Part shown: piece by piece, positions 15,562 to 22,971 of the stretch
How the letters are laid out: the number at the start of each line of letters is the position of its first letter
Position numbering within the stretch: position 1 is the stretch's first letter
Assembly (NCBI RefSeq): GCF_014189855.1
Contig: NZ_BJFN01000001.1
Span: 248,001 to 312,000, forward strand
Length of the DNA stretch: 64,000 nucleotides
Direction: 5' to 3'
Source: Buttiauxella sp. A111
GTDB lineage: Bacteria; Pseudomonadota; Gammaproteobacteria; Enterobacterales; Enterobacteriaceae
Made by a program: the position numbers and the translations under genes
The notes under the pieces: generated by a model
Seen by the model: only the letters and a program-made list of their open reading frames with translations
The model's database searches: none
Told to the model about the DNA's origin: nothing

Positions 15562-16347
15562 TCAATCTCTTTGCCCTGCAATCCTTTCACTTTTACGCCA
15601 GTCGTTCACCACCAGCCCGCCGACCATCACCACAATCGCTACGCCAAAAATCAGGCTGGTCAGGTTCGCGCCAAGCCCTAATCCACCATTGTCGACGGGT
15701 TGTGATAGCAAATCACCGCAGGCTGCACCGAAGGGTCGCGTGAGAATGTAGGCCGCCCAGAAGCAGAACACCTTATTGGCACGGAAGGTAAAGCGGGCAA
15801 TGGTGATTATCACAATCCATGCGCCAAAGAAGATGGCAGCACCGCTGTAACCAAGTCCCAGCCCTTCTGCCAGCCAGTCTCCAACCGCCGTACCCAGAGC
15901 AAATGTCGCAAGGATAGCCAGCCAGTAAAAGGATTCACGGCTCAAACTATCAATGCTGTGAATTGATAGCGTGCCTTCCTGGCGATACCAGACCACAAAC
16001 GTCACGACTAAAACCACACTGAAGAAGAGTGATGATGCGGCAAGCGGAACCTGCCAGGCGTCGGTTAGATTATCGGTTATCAACGTGCCAAAGACGCTAA
16101 TAAAAACCACCGTTAGCCAATAAAGAACCGGTTTATAACGTGGTACACGCATTTGAAAGAACAGTGCAACCGCCAGTAATATACCGGTAATAATCGAAGT
16201 ATTTGTCAGGCCAAAGTTAAGGTCCATATTCAGGAAATCTGCCGCCGTTTCACCGACGGTGGTCGACATCATTTTAATAAACCAGAATACAAGGGTGATT
16301 TCCGGGACTTTATTTAACCACCCACAATAATTTTGTTGGCTATTCAT
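15562..16347 (-). CDS. COG4705-type multi-pass membrane protein
   Basis: A 261-residue inner-membrane protein with about seven to eight hydrophobic segments. It resembles the uncharacterised COG4705 family, marked by an internal repeat. Three related units are visible: KMMSTTVGETAADFL (about 26-40), FALGTAVGDWLAEGL (about 153-167) and ILTRPFGAACGDLLS (about 201-215), each with a T/R-x(1-2)-G-x3-(A/G)D pattern. It starts two bases after the PAP2 gene, so the two form one operon. That operon starts at a CusR-type box behind a two-component system. Function unknown; a transport or envelope role is only inference. Confidence 0.75.
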   Translation of the reverse strand: MNSQQNYCGWLNKVPEITLVFWFIKMMSTTVGETAADFLNMDLNFGLTNTSIITGILLAVALFFQMRVPRYKPVLYWLTVVFISVFGTLITDNLTDAWQVPLAASSLFFSVVLVVTFVVWYRQEGTLSIHSIDSLSRESFYWLAILATFALGTAVGDWLAEGLGLGYSGAAIFFGAWIVIITIARFTFRANKVFCFWAAYILTRPFGAACGDLLSQPVDNGGLGLGANLTSLIFGVAIVVMVGGLVVNDWRKSERIAGQRD

Positions 16348-16349
16348 TA

Positions 16350-16877
16350 TTAATTTCTCACATTAGTCAGGCGTTGTATTATTTGCAGACGAGTAATGAT
16401 CCCGGCGCTTACTGCTGCCACCACCAAAGCACCGAGCATATCAACCGGGAAATGCACGCCAATAAAAACACGGGCCCAGGCTACCGCGACACCAGCCACA
16501 GAAAGTAAGATGCCCACTTTCCGATAACGAGGCGCCATCAACATCGTGAAGCCAACAGACCACGTCAGCACCGCATGATCGCTTGGGAATGAGGCACTGG
16601 CAGCATGTGGAACCAGTGTAAGACCGATACCCTCCACAAACGGGCGTGGCATTGGCCAAATATGGCCAATAGTGATGTTAATCAGCAATGCGAGTCCTGC
16701 GCATAATAGGCAACTCAGCACAAGTTGCCGATTCTCTTTCTTTCCCCAAAGTAAACCTAAAATTAACGGAATAAACCATATTGGTATTTCTGCAATGGCT
16801 CGCGCAACGTAAAGCGGGATGACACCAGGAATATGTGATGCATTAATCAGAAGAAATAATGACGTATTAAGTGACAT
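16350..16877 (-). CDS. PAP2-family phosphatase (BcrC/YbjG-like)
   Basis: A 175-residue membrane phosphatase with five to six hydrophobic segments. The three acid-phosphatase motifs are present: PMPRP (motif 1, about 74-78), SFPSDHA (motif 2, about 95-101, with the catalytic His) and ARVFIGVHFPVDMLG (motif 3, about 134-148). The size and the S-x-P-S-D-H-A form fit the BcrC/YbjG group that dephosphorylates undecaprenyl pyrophosphate. Its ribosome site GGAG lies inside the last codons of the upstream 54-codon ORF, with one base between stop and start. Confidence 0.85.
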   Translation of the reverse strand: MSLNTSLFLLINASHIPGVIPLYVARAIAEIPIWFIPLILGLLWGKKENRQLVLSCLLCAGLALLINITIGHIWPMPRPFVEGIGLTLVPHAASASFPSDHAVLTWSVGFTMLMAPRYRKVGILLSVAGVAVAWARVFIGVHFPVDMLGALVVAAVSAGIITRLQIIQRLTNVRN

Positions 16878-16878
16878 G

Positions 16879-17043
16879 TTATTTACTCCACCGAGATGAC
16901 TTTGTTTTTATCGGGTCGCTCACAGGAATAAGAGAGATCTCGATAAAAGCCAGCACTATTAATTCCATATACGTTTTAACCCAGGGGAATAAAACCCAGG
17001 AGATAACCGGCGCTGACAAATAATAAACACCATGCAGGGCCAT
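16879..17043 (-). CDS. Putative 54-residue hydrophobic leader/small protein
   Basis: An ATG at 17043 stands six bases after AGGAGA on the minus strand and opens a 54-codon ORF beginning M-A-L-H-G-V-Y-Y-L-S. It contains one or two hydrophobic stretches (about residues 5-23 and 26-41) and a basic tail. Its TAA ends one base before the PAP2 ATG, which implies translational coupling. I do not recognise a family. It may be a small membrane protein or a coupling leader. It is the first ORF after the CusR-type box at 17122. Confidence 0.5.
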   Translation of the reverse strand: MALHGVYYLSAPVISWVLFPWVKTYMELIVLAFIEISLIPVSDPIKTKSSRWSK

Positions 17044-17081
17044 TGGCTTCTCCTGGAAATCCTGTTGTTGGTCTTCCCGGA

Positions 17082-17137
17082 ATTATCAGCTTTTAACCAT
17101 GACGGTAGCTCAACCTCTGAATGACAATTTTGTCAGA
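17082..17137 (-). promoter_or_regulatory. CusR-type box and promoter of the PAP2/COG4705 operon
   Basis: TGACAA-TT-TTGTCA (17122-17135) has perfect six-base arms and matches the core of the E. coli CusR/HprR box TGACAA-N2-TTGTCA. A TGATAAT element (minus strand, 17082-17088) about 43 bases from the box centre is a good -10 and would put the box near -54, a usual activator position for CusR-type regulators. The same arrangement precedes the response-regulator gene. Confidence 0.7.
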
Positions 17138-17155
17138 ATTGACAGCGGGTGAATG

Positions 17156-18547
17156 TTATTGCGGTAATACCAGAGTGAAGCAACTTCCCTTGCCTTCGGT
17201 GCTTTCCACCTGGATTTTTCCACCATGCAGTTCGGTAATAGTCTTGGCTAACGCAAGTCCCAACCCGGTGCTTCCGGCATTGCTGCGTGCATCGTCTACC
17301 CTGTAAAAACGGTCAAAAATATGTGGCAAATGCTCGGTACTGATCCCCTCACCATTATCAATTACCGATAACAATACATTGCCATTTTCCTGCACGGCTT
17401 TCAGACACACTTCACCACCCGATGGGGTGTGGCGTATTGCGTTGGAGAGCAAGTTTGAAAGCGCCCGTTGTAAATGCACTGGGTCGGCGCGGAATGCCAC
17501 GCTCCCCTCGCTCGTTAGAGTGATCTTTTTTTCTTCGGCCAGGATGTCGTAATAATTAATTAAACGAGCAAATTCCAGGGTGCTATCCAGGTGTTTAATG
17601 TGCAGCGGTTCACGACTGTTATCGGCTCTTGCCAGAAACAGCATGGAAGAGATCATGCGCGACAACCTTTCACCTTCTTCCACAATCGCCGCCAGAGCGT
17701 CCCGATACTCTTCCGGGCTGCGTGCTTTGCTCTGCGTCACGCTGGCCGCTGAGATGAGGTTGTTGATAGGGCCGCGCAGTTCATGGGCAATATCTGATGA
17801 GAAGCGGCTCAGTTGTTTAAACGACGCTTCAAGGCGTGTCATCATTCCGTCGAACGAAGACGCCAGCGTATTTAGCTCAGATGGCCAGCGCTGAGTGGCA
17901 AGACGGGTATGCAAATCCTCCGCGTGAATGTACTCAATTTCGCGGCTCATTTTACGCAGCGGATATAGCCCGCGCCGCGCCAGCCAGTAGCCAATTGCCG
18001 AAAAGAGAACAATCGCCAGCGCCACCGCAATCTGCATTCGTTCCCAATAATCTTCAATGATTTCATTGTTGCGCGAAATGTTTAGCGCTGCCTGAACCCG
18101 CCACGGTTGGTTGCCTTTCAGCAGAAAATGAGTCGAGGTAATCAGGTATTCTTCTGTGATGCCGCCGGAGCGATAGTGCCATGGGCTGTATTTGAACTCA
18201 GGTGATGGAGCCGGGAAATCCCCTTCAGGCACCCGCAAATTCTTCGATTGCGCCCATACCTTGCCGTCGGGGCTGATGATGCGCAGCGATAGCCTGTCCT
18301 GGTGGGCGATAAAATCGAACAACTCTCGCTGCCAGAGATCGGTTGGCCCCTGGCGCTCACTGATGGTGGTGGCAATCTCTTGTTGAAACTGCAAGGTGCT
18401 GCGCAGTTCGTTTTCATTTTTTTGGCTGATCTGATTGCGCATGCTGGAGTACAAAAGCCCGGATACGCTATACAGCACCAGCGTCATGGCGATGGTAAAA
18501 TAGAGCGTCAGCCTTAGCGTTATCGAGAAATTACGCGGTATCGGCAT
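17156..18547 (-). CDS. Sensor histidine kinase, heavy-metal (CusS/IrlS) type
   Basis: A 463-residue membrane kinase. Two membrane segments (about 12-35 and 170-190) enclose a periplasmic sensor domain, followed by HAMP, a dimerisation domain with His255 in [11 protein letters not shown], and a catalytic domain with N box ([14 protein letters not shown]), DNGEGI and GSTGLGLAL. This architecture fits the heavy-metal sensor kinase subfamily. The signal is unknown; no metal-efflux gene is adjacent, and the predicted target operon encodes envelope proteins. It overlaps the regulator gene by 17 bases. Confidence 0.88.
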
Positions 18548-19232
18548 TATCTCTTTCTTCCAGCACGTAACCTGCGCCTCTGATGGTATGTAGAAGCTTC
18601 ATGTCATAGCCATCATCAATTTTGCAGCGTAAACGGCGAATCGCGACATCAATCACGTTGGTTTCCGGGTCAAAATTCATGTCCCATACCTGCTCAGCGA
18701 GGACTGTTCGCGAGAGCACCTCGCCGCTACGACGCATCAACAGACTTAAGAGTAGAAATTCTTTTTGCGTAAGCTCAATACGTTTTCCTGCACGCGATAC
18801 CCGATGCTTGAGAAAATCGAGTTGCAAGGTGCTGATTTGCAATACTGATTTTTCCACTACTGGCGCGTGAACGGCCTGACGGCGCATGATCACGCGTACT
18901 CTTGCGAGCAATTCGCTGAATGAAAAAGGTTTGATCAAGTAATCTTCTGCACCTAATTCCAGACCACGAACCCGATCTTCGACTTCATCCCGCGCAGTGA
19001 GGAACATGACTGGAGTGGCCTTCCCCGCCTGGCGTGCCAGCTCAAGAATTTTCCAGCCATTCATGCCAGGCAGCATCACATCCAGAATCGCAAGGTCATA
19101 GTCGTTGGTGAGCAAAAAGTGCAGGCCATCAACACCGTTGTTGGCAACATCAACCACAAAATCGTTTTCTTTCATTCCTTTAGCGATGTAATCCGCCGCC
19201 ATGGATTGATCTTCAACCAGCAATAGTCTCAT
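18531..19232 (-). CDS. OmpR/PhoB-family response regulator, CusR-like
   Basis: A 233-residue regulator with a receiver domain (Asp51 in [10 protein letters not shown], Lys101 in IKPFSF, acidic Glu7-Asp8) and a C-terminal winged helix ending RRLRCKIDD...[10 protein letters not shown]. It resembles CusR/HprR/IrlR regulators. A CusR-type box (19301-19318) and a TAAAAT -10 lie upstream, and an identical box precedes the PAP2/COG4705 operon, so it probably activates both itself and that operon. It is not E. coli cusR itself by context, since no cusCFBA genes are present. Confidence 0.9.
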
Positions 19233-19261
19233 TGAGCCTCCAATAAATGCGCCGCAACTAC

Positions 19262-19318
19262 ATTTTACCTTGGGCTTTCCGACAAACAGAGAGGCGCTAA
19301 GATGACAATTTTGTCATC
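19262..19318 (-). promoter_or_regulatory. CusR-type box and promoter of the two-component operon
   Basis: GATGACAA-TT-TTGTCATC (19301-19318) has perfect eight-base arms. On the minus strand a TAAAAT -10 lies at 19262-19267, 45 bases from the box centre, so the box is again near -54. The box starts immediately after the fbpC stop codon. Confidence 0.75.
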
Positions 19319-20356
19319 TTAATCCGCCAGGACGCAGGCATGACCCGTAACCGCCAGTTTAACTTGCATCCCCACCTGCCACTTTTGCTGACTGACCGTT
19401 TTAATCTGTAACGGCGCGGTCCATACGGGAGAGATGAGCGTCAGTGTTGAAAGGTAACCGGTAAAATCCACATCGCTGATGGTGACAGTGTGATGAGTTT
19501 CAGCATCGGCCTGGTATGGAGAAATAATGATTTGCTCCGGGCGCAGCATAATACGTTTGTCACCTGTAAATTGCGGGTTGTCCGCAGGAATAGTACCCAG
19601 CTCACAGTGGGCAAAGCCGTTGCTGACTTGTGCGGAGAAAATCAACGCATCGCCGAGAAACAGCGCGGTGGCTTCATCCACGGGTTGTGAATAAACCTCT
19701 GTCGGCGAACCGACCTGGGAAAAACGGCCATCGCGAATGACCGCAATCTGGCTGGCAAAGGAGAGCGCTTCATGCTGATCGTGAGTCACCAGAATCGAGG
19801 CCACTCCGGCGTATGCCAATAATTCAGCCGTGGCTTTTCGAGTCGCTGCACGCAGCCCGGTATCGAGTGCAGAGAACGGTTCATCGAGCAACATCAGCAC
19901 CGGTTCTTGTGCGAGCGCGCGAGCCAGCGCCACGCGTTGCTGTTGCCCGCCTGAGATTTCATGCGGCCAGTGGTCTTGCAGATGACGGTCGAGAGAAACG
20001 AGTTCCATCAGTTCAGCGATGCGGCGGCGGTTTTCATGACGGGACCCCGTCAGGCCGTACGCGATGTTGTCCCCCACTTTCATATGTGGGAAAAGTGCCC
20101 CTTCCTGCGGAACGAAACCAATGCCACGCTGATGCGCCGGGATAAACGTACTTTCGTCAAAAAGCGTTTTACCCGACAGAGTAATTCGCCCGCTATCCGG
20201 CGTTTCAAACCCCGCAAGAATGCGCAGCAATGTGGTTTTTCCCGAACCAGATGGCCCGACAATCACCGTCCGGCTGGCAGGCACGACAGATAAATTGATA
20301 TTTTCCAGCACTGATGTCTGGCCAAATTTTTTGGAAATATTCGCTAGTTCAATCAT
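19319..20356 (-). CDS. fbpC: Ferric iron ABC transporter, ATP-binding protein (FbpC/SfuC type)
   Basis: A 345-residue ABC ATPase. I start it at ATG 20356 (M-I-E-L-A-N), one base after the permease stop; a longer in-frame start lies inside the permease. Walker A GPSGSGKTT is at about 34-42, the Q loop in GFVPQEGALFPH, the signature SGGQQQRVALARAL, and Walker B LMLLDEPFSALD. A C-terminal TOBE-like domain follows, as in FbpC. It energises uptake of Fe3+ through FbpB. The gene ends directly against the regulator's CusR-type box. Confidence 0.92.
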   Translation of the reverse strand: MIELANISKKFGQTSVLENINLSVVPASRTVIVGPSGSGKTTLLRILAGFETPDSGRITLSGKTLFDESTFIPAHQRGIGFVPQEGALFPHMKVGDNIAYGLTGSRHENRRRIAELMELVSLDRHLQDHWPHEISGGQQQRVALARALAQEPVLMLLDEPFSALDTGLRAATRKATAELLAYAGVASILVTHDQHEALSFASQIAVIRDGRFSQVGSPTEVYSQPVDEATALFLGDALIFSAQVSNGFAHCELGTIPADNPQFTGDKRIMLRPEQIIISPYQADAETHHTVTISDVDFTGYLSTLTLISPVWTAPLQIKTVSQQKWQVGMQVKLAVTGHACVLAD

Positions 20357-20357
20357 C

Positions 20358-21932
20358 TTACAGACCCGCCAGTTTTTGAGACTGCACATATAAAATACCG
20401 GTTAACGGCAGTGCAATAAGGACCATCAGCAGCGCATAAGGGGCGGCAGCAACGTAATCAATTTCGCTGGTCAGCGCCCAGAAGGCGGTCGAAAGCGTGC
20501 GCGTGCCTGGCGGTGATAGCAAAAGCGTTGCAGTCAGCTCATTGGTCACCCCGAGGAATACCAATGCAGCACCTGCGGCGGCACCCGGAGCCGCAAGGCG
20601 TAAGGTAATGCTCCAGATGGCAGCGGCCTGGGTTTTACCTAAACTGCGAGCGACATTCTCAAGTTCTACAGGCGCCTGAGCAATCCCGGCGCGCAAGTTT
20701 ATCAACGCTCTCGGCGTGAACATCAGCAAGTAAGCCAGAAACAGTGTGACTTCTGTCTGATAGATGGGGCGCATGTAGTGAATGGTTACTGTGACCAGCG
20801 ACAGTGCGACCACAATGCCGGGCAATGAACTGGTAAAGTAATTACACCCTTCAAGCACGCGGTACAGCGGACGCGGATGGCGTACCGAAAGCCAGGCAAT
20901 GGGAATACCTGCAAGAATAATGACCAATGCGCCCGCAGAGGCCAGCAGCAGGGTCTGGCGCAGAGTGGACCAGAGTTCGGGCTGGTTCCAGTTTTCTATT
21001 CCCCCCAACCATAACCAGCGCAACAGCACCGCGATTGGCACCACGAAAGCCAGCAGTATGATCGTCGATGAGAATAACTGACCTAAAATACTCAGCAGCC
21101 TGTTCAAACGCAGATGATTTTGCTGACGCGGCGAACCCGCTCCCACTCGCGCGTAACGAGCTTTGCCACGAGTAGCCCCTTCGAGGGTAAGGAACACCAG
21201 ACAACACAAGGCCAAAACTCCCGCCAGCATATTCGCCGCAGGACCGCTAAACGTCGATTGAAATTGGTCGTAAATAGCAGTGGTGAAGGTATCAAAACGA
21301 ATCATCGCGTACAGCCCGTATTCCGCCAGCAAATGCAAAGTCACTAGCAGCGCCCCACCCCAAATCGCAAGCTTAAGCTGCGGCAGGACAATACGGAAAA
21401 ATACCGCCCAGGGCGGTGTACCCAGTGAAGCGGCGACATCTTCTAATGTGGGGTCGAGACGACGAAGTACGGCCGCCACAGGCAGATAAATAAAGGGGTA
21501 ATAGGCCAGTACAGACAGAAAGACCCCAGCGGATAAGCCGTGCATCGACGGCACCGCACTGACCCACGCGTAACTTTGCACAAAAGCTGGGATTGCCAGG
21601 GGAGCCACGGCCAGCATCGACCAGATACGCCTTCCGGCAAGCGTCGTTCTTTCAGTCAGCCAGGCGAGCAATGTCCCCGTGAAGATACAAAGCGGGACGG
21701 CGATTATCACTAAGAGCAGTGTGTTGCTGAGAAGCTCAGCAACACGAGGACGGAATATGAGTGCCTTGACCGTTTCCCAGCCGGTGTCAAATCCAATAAC
21801 AATGACAAAAACGGGGGGGATCAGCGATAGCATTGAGAAAAAGATCGCGAGCAGCACCATCAAAAAGGCAGGACGCCGCTGTAAATCACGGATCTGTATG
21901 TTGGGACTCTCTGTAACGTTAACCACGGACAT
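20358..21932 (-). CDS. fbpB: Ferric iron ABC transporter, fused permease (FbpB/SfuB type)
   Basis: A 524-residue inner-membrane permease with about twelve hydrophobic segments in two homologous halves. Each half carries an EAA-type loop for docking the ATPase: [20 protein letters not shown] near residue 165 and [19 protein letters not shown] near residue 428. Such two-domain permeases are typical of FbpB/SfuB/CysTW-like ferric transporters. It lies between fbpA (22-base gap) and fbpC in one operon. Confidence 0.92.
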
Positions 21933-21954
21933 CAGGCACTCACCACTGCATTTA

Positions 21955-22971
21955 TTAAAGAAGGCCAGCTTCAGTCATCAAATCAATGACTTTTTTGCTA
22001 TTGAGTGATGACGGCTCAACTTTCGGCGCATCCAGATCTTTCAGTGGAACCAGTTTAGGGTTAGATGCCGCGTTATTACCGACCGCATATTCAAACGCAT
22101 TGTTAGTACGCAGAATTTCCTGACCAGATTTACCGGTCACCCACTTCACGAAGGCCTGAGCTTGTTGTTGATGCTTGCTGGAAGCCAGAACACCGCCGCC
22201 AGAGATACTGACAAAAGCGCCTGGGTCCTGATGTTTAAAGTAGTGGAGTTGCGTGTTTTTGCTGTTTTCGCCGGTTTTGGCCTGGTCAACAAAACGGTAA
22301 TAGTGATAAATCACCCCACCATCAATTTGATCTGCGTTCACGGCTTTCATGACGGTACTATTGCCTTTATAAGCAACAAAGTTTGTTTTCATTGCTTTCA
22401 GCCAATCCAGCGTTGCTTTCTCGCCTTTCAGTGCCAGAACGGCGCTCACGATCGCCTGGAAATCAGCACCTGACGGGGAAGCGGCCCAGCGCCCTTTCCA
22501 CTCAGGTTTCGCCAAATCCATTAAGGATTTTGGCAATTGCGCTTCGCTCAGTTTTGCAGGGTTATACACGAACACGGTGCTACGGGCGGCAATGCCAATC
22601 CAGCGCCCATGATCCGGACGATATGCTGGAGCGACCTGCGCAAGGGTATCGGCATCCAGAGGTGCGAATAATTTCGCGTTATCAACCAGTACCATCGCAG
22701 GTGAGTTTTCGGTAAGGAAAACGTCCGCAGGCGACGCACTGCCTTCCTGCACCAGCTGATTGCCTAACTCACTGTCCCCGCCGTTACGCAGAGTGACTTT
22801 GATGCCCGTCTCTTTGGTGAAGCCATCGACCCAAGACTGAACCAGATTTTCATGCTGGGCGTTATAAACCACGATTCCTTCGTTGTTATCCGCCGCACTG
22901 GCAAATGACGACAGTAGAATAGATGAAGTCACTACTGCGATGGAGCAAAGGGACGATACGCCAAATTTCAT
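21955..22971 (-). CDS. fbpA: Periplasmic ferric iron-binding protein (FbpA/SfuA type)
   Basis: A 338-residue class of bacterial transferrin-like binding protein. The signal peptide of about 26 residues ends SFASA before A-D-N-N. Mature-protein iron-binding features are present: YNAQHENL near the N terminus, [11 protein letters not shown], and the paired tyrosines of GVIYHYYRF near residue 225, equivalent to the two Fe-ligand tyrosines of Neisseria FbpA. It is the first gene of the operon, preceded by AAGGA and a Fur box, so it is presumably derepressed on iron starvation. Confidence 0.94.

Follow-up and report, generated by a model that had tools for sequence, protein, structure and literature searches.

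Gene content of the locus

We examined a stretch of 64,000 nucleotides from Buttiauxella sp. A111 (contig NZ_BJFN01000001.1 of assembly GCF_014189855.1, positions 248,001 to 312,000), which as a whole is called the window below, and within it a minus-strand locus that combines a two-component system (TCS) with a small unit encoding a PAP2 phosphatase and a DUF347 (COG4705) membrane protein. The genes follow each other in the order response regulator, sensor kinase, 54-aa open reading frame (ORF), PAP2 and DUF347, as had been predicted from the DNA, and domains were recognized in the products of all but the 54-aa ORF. Identical palindromic boxes stand ahead of the regulator gene and ahead of the PAP2-DUF347 unit (Table 1), an arrangement that would place both under the same regulator.

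Table 1. Features of the locus in window coordinates
Feature	Coordinates	Strand	Remarks
DUF347/COG4705 membrane protein, 8 predicted helices	15562..16347	-	PF03988 199.8 bits, 4 repeats
PAP2 phosphatase, YbjG/BcrC-type relative	16350..16877	-	PF01569 48.7 bits
dedA (VTT-domain) remnant with large internal deletion (the 54-aa ORF)	16879..17043	-	from comparison with Buttiauxella sp. B2
-10-like hexamer GATAAT of the PAP2-DUF347 unit	17082..17087	-	34 bases past box end
Regulator box 2, TGACAATTTTGTCA	17122..17135		5' of dedA remnant-PAP2-DUF347 unit; exact
Sensor histidine kinase, heavy-metal subfamily	17156..18547	-	TIGR01386 402.5 bits, cut-off 292.55
Response regulator, OmpR family, CusR/HprR-like subclade	18531..19232	-	TIGR01387 320 bits, cut-off 279.2
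-10-like hexamer TAAAAT of the regulator promoter	19262..19267	-	35 bases past box end
Regulator box 1, TGACAATTTTGTCA	19303..19316		5' of regulator-kinase operon; exact

The 54-aa ORF had been counted as a gene of the unit, and it proved to be what a deletion has left of a dedA gene that is intact at the same place in Buttiauxella sp. B2 (206 aa, with a VTT domain; L004:4816-5433). The 5' part of the remnant, comprising the ribosome-binding site, the start and the first codons, is identical to the B2 gene at 24 of 26 bases and its 3' piece at 36 of 46, with the middle deleted. This origin rules out the ORF as a small regulatory protein. The PAP2 protein is 39% identical to E. coli YbjG and scores 119.3 bits against the undecaprenyl-pyrophosphate phosphatase YbjG equivalog PRK11837, the cut-off of which is 229 bits; hence, of the earlier assignment as an undecaprenyl-pyrophosphate phosphatase, the relationship stands and the curated equivalence does not. 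The columns R-P, P-S-x-H and R-x5-H-x3-D are invariant in 10 aligned sequences, and with its catalytic-type columns intact the protein is likely to be a working phosphatase.

The predicted structure of the DUF347 protein, which is 88% identical to that of B2 (NZ_VEXQ01000003.1), consists of eight helices (mean predicted local distance difference test score 90.2). Its sequence is typified by a fourfold motif, [FY]W-x9-G-x4-D, seen at W22/G32/D37, W77/G87/D92, W142/G152/D157 and W197/G207/D212, in which the W, G and D are invariant in 57 of 57 sequences. As per the helix limits of the model the aspartates of the motif sit in helices 1, 3, 5 and 7, and these four equivalent membrane acids suggest that the protein may handle cations or transport ions. 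A sequence search against solved structures gave no match at E<=1.

Paired boxes and promoter geometry

Both boxes are exact, beginning at 17122 and 19303 as predicted, and the box of E. coli cusC is the same 14-mer, in agreement with the earlier identification of the motif as the CusR/HprR core. The pattern TGACAANNTTGTCA (TGACAA-N2-TTGTCA) occurs exactly three times in the 4,889,549-base assembly (37 contigs) and the reversed control pattern not at all; the third copy falls inside a 419-aa ORF that appears by eye to be MFS transporter-like. The base-composition expectation for the box in the 10 kb around the locus is 0.0006. With up to two mismatches allowed, 6 sites are present in the window where 3.05 would be expected, a count reached by 11 of 100 shuffles; given this lack of a clear excess, the exact copies alone count as evidence. 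Over the whole assembly, 26 sites with up to one mismatch (3 exact and 23 one-mismatch) were found against 16 for the reversed control. Seventeen of the 23 one-mismatch sites were inspected (12 and 5); 14 of them are within ORFs and three outside (L157, L159 and L160), with 142 bases separating L157 from a 335-aa ORF downstream of it, and none among the 17 was convincing as a target or as evidence of a further regulon member in this genome. A terminator at the 17122 box was ruled out by eye, the box being a 14-base AT-rich palindrome without a T run (no terminator scan was run).

The distance from box centre to hexamer centre is 45 bases for TAAAAT and 44 for GATAAT, in line with the 43–45 bases previously given. 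GATAAT recurs with an unchanged offset in B2 and two plasmid promoters of Klebsiella pneumoniae, and E. coli cusC (TAAAGT) and hiuH (TATCCT) have a -10-like hexamer at offset 34. The promoters of the window are thus of the CusR/HprR type: as in cusC and hiuH, each combines a TGACAA-N2-TTGTCA box with a -10 whose distance from the box centre is about 44 bases. Over 12 promoters of six loci with orthologous regulators, taking the better of the hexamers at offsets 34 and 35 gives on average 4.33 of 6 -10 matches, a mean reached in 0 of 2000 base shuffles (shuffle mean 2.81, largest 3.5), although these loci are related and their sites are not independent. In B2 the site aligned to the 17122 box is the symmetric variant TAACAAAATTGTAA. 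The hiuH/hprR box of E. coli, CATTACAAAATTGTAATG, is bound by both CusR and HprR (PMC9302797), and suggests how the B2 variant could still function. The near-unique exact sites, the box to -10 distance and the presence of boxes in two relatives (see below) support the predicted control of both units by one TCS, and we consider such box-mediated control highly probable from these sequence features.

Affinities of the regulator and the kinase

The two proteins belong to the heavy metal response regulator (TIGR01387) and heavy metal sensor kinase (TIGR01386) subfamilies. The regulator scores 287.5 bits against the CusR equivalog (PRK09836/NF007346, cut-off 420) and 280.6 bits against the HprR equivalog (PRK11517/NF008567, cut-off 353), and is thus assigned to neither. 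In a 24-row tree it falls in a six-member clade of its own, with support of 97/99, inside a group that also contains CusR and HprR; the MmfR-like regulators (see below) stand apart from it and group with PmrA (91/85, on long branches). It should be noted that three of the six genus paralogues (L067-L069), for which no frame was found, were left out of this tree, that two of its branches are long, and that its deep branches are not strongly supported, making the deep joins unsure. The regulator alignment A1 contains frames from the ORF calling that was unreliable in high-GC loci (see below), at least one of which is doubtful (19% identity). The recognition region, VWDMNFD...KID, is identical to that of E. 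coli CusR in 19 of 25 positions by manual count.

The kinase contains HAMP, HisKA and HATPase domains and a partial match to the Pfam CusS-sensor (26.6 bits, cut-off 24.1; residues 5-103), which counts against a sensor of non-CusS type. In the periplasmic domain of CusS, histidine and methionine are metal-ligand residues. The aligned part of the E. coli CusS sensor has 5 His and 5 Met, its His/Met-rich insert falling in a gap, whereas the window sensor lacks Cys and shows no invariant Cys, His or Met in residues 36-168 across six orthologues. The CusS-type His/Met ligands are thus not found in it. The same six share 7 invariant Glu and 1 invariant Asp, and with this composition a CusS-like copper site in the window kinase appears unlikely.

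The system also invites comparison with E. coli CusRS-cusCFBA and HprRS-hiuH-msrPQ, with which it shares the type of palindromic box, the box to -10 distance (cusC, hiuH) and the TCS subfamily, and from which it differs in its equivalog scores, in its sensor residues and in having neither metal efflux nor MsrPQ genes beside it. A diverged CusRS or HprRS, responding to copper/silver or hypochlorous acid and lying beside unrelated lipid genes, would explain the subfamily memberships of both proteins, the box shared with cusC and the partial CusS-sensor match. The rest of the genome bears on this explanation as well: no other regulator in it matches that of the window at E<=1e-50, and it has a CusA-family RND gene over the curated cut-off (G000:C3:293400-300900, L175), so that the statement that copper efflux genes are absent is correct for the locus and not for the genome. 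The frame of this gene is open over 1039 aa, a 'TAA' within the match being the end of the gene; its neighbours are cusB-, cusC- and cusF-like by eye, and no CusR-like regulator was recognized beside it, which also speaks for a diverged CusRS or HprRS. However, no box-like string with fewer than two mismatches was found in the 16-kb stretch around it, which rules out copper efflux as a missing box-controlled target. This, the scores well under the CusR and HprR cut-offs, the separate clade, the contrast between the sensor and CusS, and the association of the boxes with DUF347 and PAP2 genes in two relatives all argue against a diverged CusRS or HprRS, which we regard as improbable.

Orthologous regulators on plasmids

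Orthologues of the regulator are rare: when 394 genomes were sampled evenly across the order, matches at E<=1e-90 were confined to its own genome. Among plasmid records, 3225 match it at E<=1e-60 and four are more than 80% identical (82-88%), namely K. pneumoniae NZ_CP069846 and three from Pantoea, all with the order RND adaptor, RND permease, response regulator, kinase. These four resemble the window in having an orthologous TCS, the box and nearby DUF347 and PAP2 genes; they differ from it in that their TCS genes directly follow RND pump genes, whereas the window locus has no RND genes and follows an FbpC/PhnT-like ABC operon. An exact box lies 5' of the RND adaptor in 4 of the 4. In the K. 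pneumoniae plasmid boxes are also seen at two separate units, methyltransferase-DUF347 (one mismatch) and hypothetical gene-PAP2 (exact), and in Pantoea At-9b an exact box is ahead of DUF347-PAP2. P. soli has a one-mismatch box 5' of a small ORF, and in SOD02 a second box within one mismatch was not found. The box-preceded methyltransferase of K. pneumoniae scores 74 bits (cut-off 350) and 70 bits (cut-off 250) against the phospholipid and ornithine-lipid N-methyltransferase models, respectively.

Next to PAP2 genes, two small ORFs (L122:11762-12034 and L131:11187-11474) follow a box; their products, 90-95 aa long, match no Pfam family.

Neighbourhoods of DUF347 genes

A survey of 56 DUF347 loci, taken to within 5 kb, showed a regulator and kinase at 35, a PAP2, DedA or UppP gene at 26 and both at 20; the corresponding counts in 20 random stretches were 0, 0 and 0, with one regulator and one kinase found singly. 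These figures are to be read with the sampling in mind: the 56 loci come from many phyla and the random stretches from Enterobacterales only, and the loci, having been selected for short exact peptides in common with the window protein, lean to close relatives. Moreover, several are cut by contig ends and two (L022 and L032) are from one species. The counts use stop-to-stop ORFs in place of an ORF calling that missed or mis-set genes in high-GC loci. A separate set of 8 hand-picked plasmid loci, included neither in the 56 nor in the 15 loci of the order given below, had a TCS in 7 and both elements in 5. The regulators involved are not of one kind: among 40 (that of the window, 4 from plasmids, 33 beside DUF347, and E. 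coli CusR and HprR) the models matched at E<=1e-60 were TIGR01387 in 15, PmrA in 9 and QseB in 4, indicating that DUF347 associates with several regulator types.

Phosphoethanolamine transferase genes were encountered within 3 kb of DUF347 at 7 of 79 loci scanned, which include the 8 hand-picked ones, against 0 of 20 random stretches. In B2 such a gene (L004:6857-8473), the product of which is 84% identical to plasmid MCR-10.1, is convergent with DUF347 at about 70 bases; in plasmid pECL_A (L124:6502-9741) the DUF347 gene comes about 850 bases after mcr-10.1; the others are at L108, L112, L113, L114 and L132. Each of the 12 genomes of the genus has a match to the B2 transferase, the identity being 83-100% in 10. 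In seven alphaproteobacterial records (L017, L020, L026, L029, L031, L039 and L040) a single open frame close to DUF347, about 2 kb long, contains both a PAP2 and a DedA domain.

Relationship to the mmf cluster and the Frankia operons

The mmf cluster of Tn6048, known from Cupriavidus metallidurans and the plasmids pMOL98, pHB44 and pBS64, comprises a BcrC-like mmfB, the DUF347 genes mmfC1 and mmfC2 and a TCS (PMC4914505, PMC2864759, PMC12029693), and genes of Tn6048 are induced by zinc and lead (PMC2864759). Carriage of pHB44 by Variovorax is accompanied by a bacitracin minimum inhibitory concentration of 300 vs 40 ug/ml, and that of pMBUI8, which has mmfA and mmfB only, by E. coli with one of 200 vs 40, these being effects of whole plasmids in which the mmf genes were not tested singly (PMC4914505). 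In common with mmf the window unit has a PAP2/BcrC-like phosphatase, DUF347 and a linked TCS. On the other hand, mmf has an MmfR-like regulator, and the window regulator is 33-35% identical to the MmfR-like one of the Delftia Tn6048-like locus L126, in which no CusR-type box with fewer than two mismatches was found. Further members of the cluster are PepSY (mmfA), mmfD, eamA and a second DUF347, and DedA is not among its listed genes; neither PepSY, mmfD nor a second DUF347 was detected at the window locus by the ORF list and domain scans of 7 proteins.

In Frankia three UppP-DUF347 operons are raised under lead, and metal export-precipitation has been proposed (PMC4531530). Like the window unit they join an undecaprenyl phosphatase and DUF347 in one operon, with the differences that the phosphatase is named UppP and that the available text describes no regulator for them (PMC4531530). 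The Frankia and mmf systems already link phosphatase and DUF347, and in mmf also a TCS, to zinc/lead induction and, for plasmids with mmf, to bacitracin, so that the original view of the circuit as undescribed and of its membrane protein as unstudied is not supported in that form. No report on the exact circuit was found in the open-access literature searched. UppP belongs to a different family from PAP2. The circuit is well supported by comparison, yet it amounts to a known module, that of mmf, in re-wired form and not to a wholly undescribed pathway; what is novel is the mmf-like module placed under a regulator of CusR/HprR type instead of MmfR type, with a sensor devoid of invariant Cys, His and Met.

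The same comparisons allow a different signal to be considered, namely that the TCS is an envelope or cationic-peptide stress system used in the manner of PmrAB or BaeSR, serving undecaprenyl-phosphate recycling, drug efflux and phospholipid modification, with metals incidental. Box control would be common to this and to the explanation preferred below. Several observations speak for it: behind boxes of the orthologous TCSs are found RND pumps (the one scanned being MdtB/C-like), a distant relative of lipid N-methyltransferases and PgpB/YbjG-like phosphatases; the sensor is free of Cys and rich in Glu; phosphoethanolamine transferases occur near DUF347 as counted above; an mmf plasmid raises the bacitracin inhibitory concentration; and the DedA protein PA4029 of Pseudomonas aeruginosa is reported to act as a C55-P flippase and to be important in resistance to polymyxin (PMC12893004). 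The induction of Tn6048 genes by zinc and lead and of the Frankia operons by lead stands against it, as does the ion transporter-like appearance of the DUF347 protein. We consider this alternative a real possibility, though with the odds somewhat against it.

Selection and decay

Between the window and B2 the ratio of nonsynonymous to synonymous substitutions (dN/dS) is 0.020 for the regulator (97% identical), 0.059 for the kinase, 0.046 for DUF347 and 0.133 for PAP2, values that are rough with dS at about 1 to 1.5 and synonymous changes near saturation. On these estimates the four surviving genes appear to be under purifying selection. At the same time the unit is being lost. The same-species genome G009 (L127:7684-8070) has a one-mismatch box, two regulator scraps and a DUF347 scrap, followed by ompW, and among the 12 genomes of the genus DUF347 is present in two, this one and one other. 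Together with the dedA remnant this indicates that the unit is accessory and decaying in the lineage, and, given the scraps in G009, that it is dispensable there. The 17122 box might accordingly be thought a fossil ahead of a dying unit that is no longer regulated or used, as the dedA deletion, the changed box of G009 and the PAP2 dN/dS, the highest of the four, could suggest. Yet all four genes are open and conserved, with dN/dS of 0.02-0.13, and the window still has an intact box and -10; there is accordingly little likelihood that the box is a relic.

A proposed circuit

From the boxes, promoter geometry, regulon linkage, purifying selection and module association obtained by comparison we infer binding, activation, signal, transported species and role along the following lines. 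The regulator, of the CusR/HprR subclade, would bind TGACAA-N2-TTGTCA palindromes centred near -54 and thereby activate two sigma-70 promoters, that of its own operon, giving positive feedback, and that of the downstream (dedA)-PAP2-DUF347 unit. The PAP2 enzyme would restore undecaprenyl phosphate on the outer side of the inner membrane, and the ancestral DedA would have flipped it back. The DUF347 protein, with its eight helices and four repeated membrane aspartates, probably moves a cation or other small ion. Acting together, these proteins would safeguard the lipid-carrier cycle and the envelope against stress from divalent metals or bacitracin-like agents. Metal stress, bacitracin-like stress or both would agree with the phosphatase, with DUF347 and with the data on mmf and Frankia. 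To this reading, in which a CusR/HprR-family TCS activates itself and an mmf-like (dedA)-PAP2-DUF347 operon protecting the lipid-carrier cycle and envelope, we assign a rough probability of 0.65.

A number of observations weigh against it. Both B2 boxes are inexact, with one mismatch at the regulator and two, symmetric, at dedA. In E. coli, the best -10-like hexamers towards cusR and hprR stand at 38 and 37, respectively, and not at 34–35, and Pantoea At-9b has a weak -10 (3 of 6) at its DUF347 unit. The PAP2/DUF347 genes of P. soli and SOD02 lack the box and are accompanied by an additional TCS, which is MmfR-like; the simplest reading of this is that the box accompanies the target genes when these lack a regulator of their own. 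The RND permease of the K. pneumoniae plasmid, the sole one scanned, is best matched by MdtB/C-type and not by CusA/CzcA models. The co-occurrence of TCS and lipid-phosphate gene with DUF347, seen at 20 of the 56 loci, is not repeated within the order, where 15 DUF347 loci from 12 genomes had, within 5 kb, a TCS at 2, a lipid-phosphate gene at 4 and both at none. The loss of the unit in G009 belongs here as well. As for mmf itself, pHB44 carriage gives better growth at low Fe and V (PMC4914505), and two C. gilardii strains with mmf had no growth advantage with Cd, Co or Zn over a strain lacking the cluster, as compared in one pair (PMC12029693), results that weaken a plain metal-resistance or export role for the cluster.

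It is conceivable, if on balance doubtful, that DUF347, its eight helices deriving from four repeats that each bear the motif, represents a distinct kind of ion transporter which, with PAP2/UppP and DedA, forms a widespread lipid-carrier protection unit beside TCSs in several phyla, coupling phosphate release or carrier recycling at the outer face to cation movement, and that this unit has passed more than once between MmfR- and CusR/HprR-type regulators by gain or loss of the TGACAA-N2-TTGTCA box. The proposed circuit connects the CusR/HprR box with a metal response and with the recycling of undecaprenyl phosphate, and presents a case in which regulators of two families would serve downstream genes of the same kind. 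It is also compact, consisting of one regulator, two promoters and two boxes, and so well suited to testing the function of DUF347.

Flanking genes

The locus is flanked by ompW and by the FbpC/PhnT-like ABC transporter operon, which reaches no equivalog cut-off. The latter (window 19319-22971) precedes the regulator and adjoins it in B2 too; it is also present in G008 and G009, there without an intact regulator. In G009 the scraps lie between this operon and ompW and represent the decayed locus caught mid-way.

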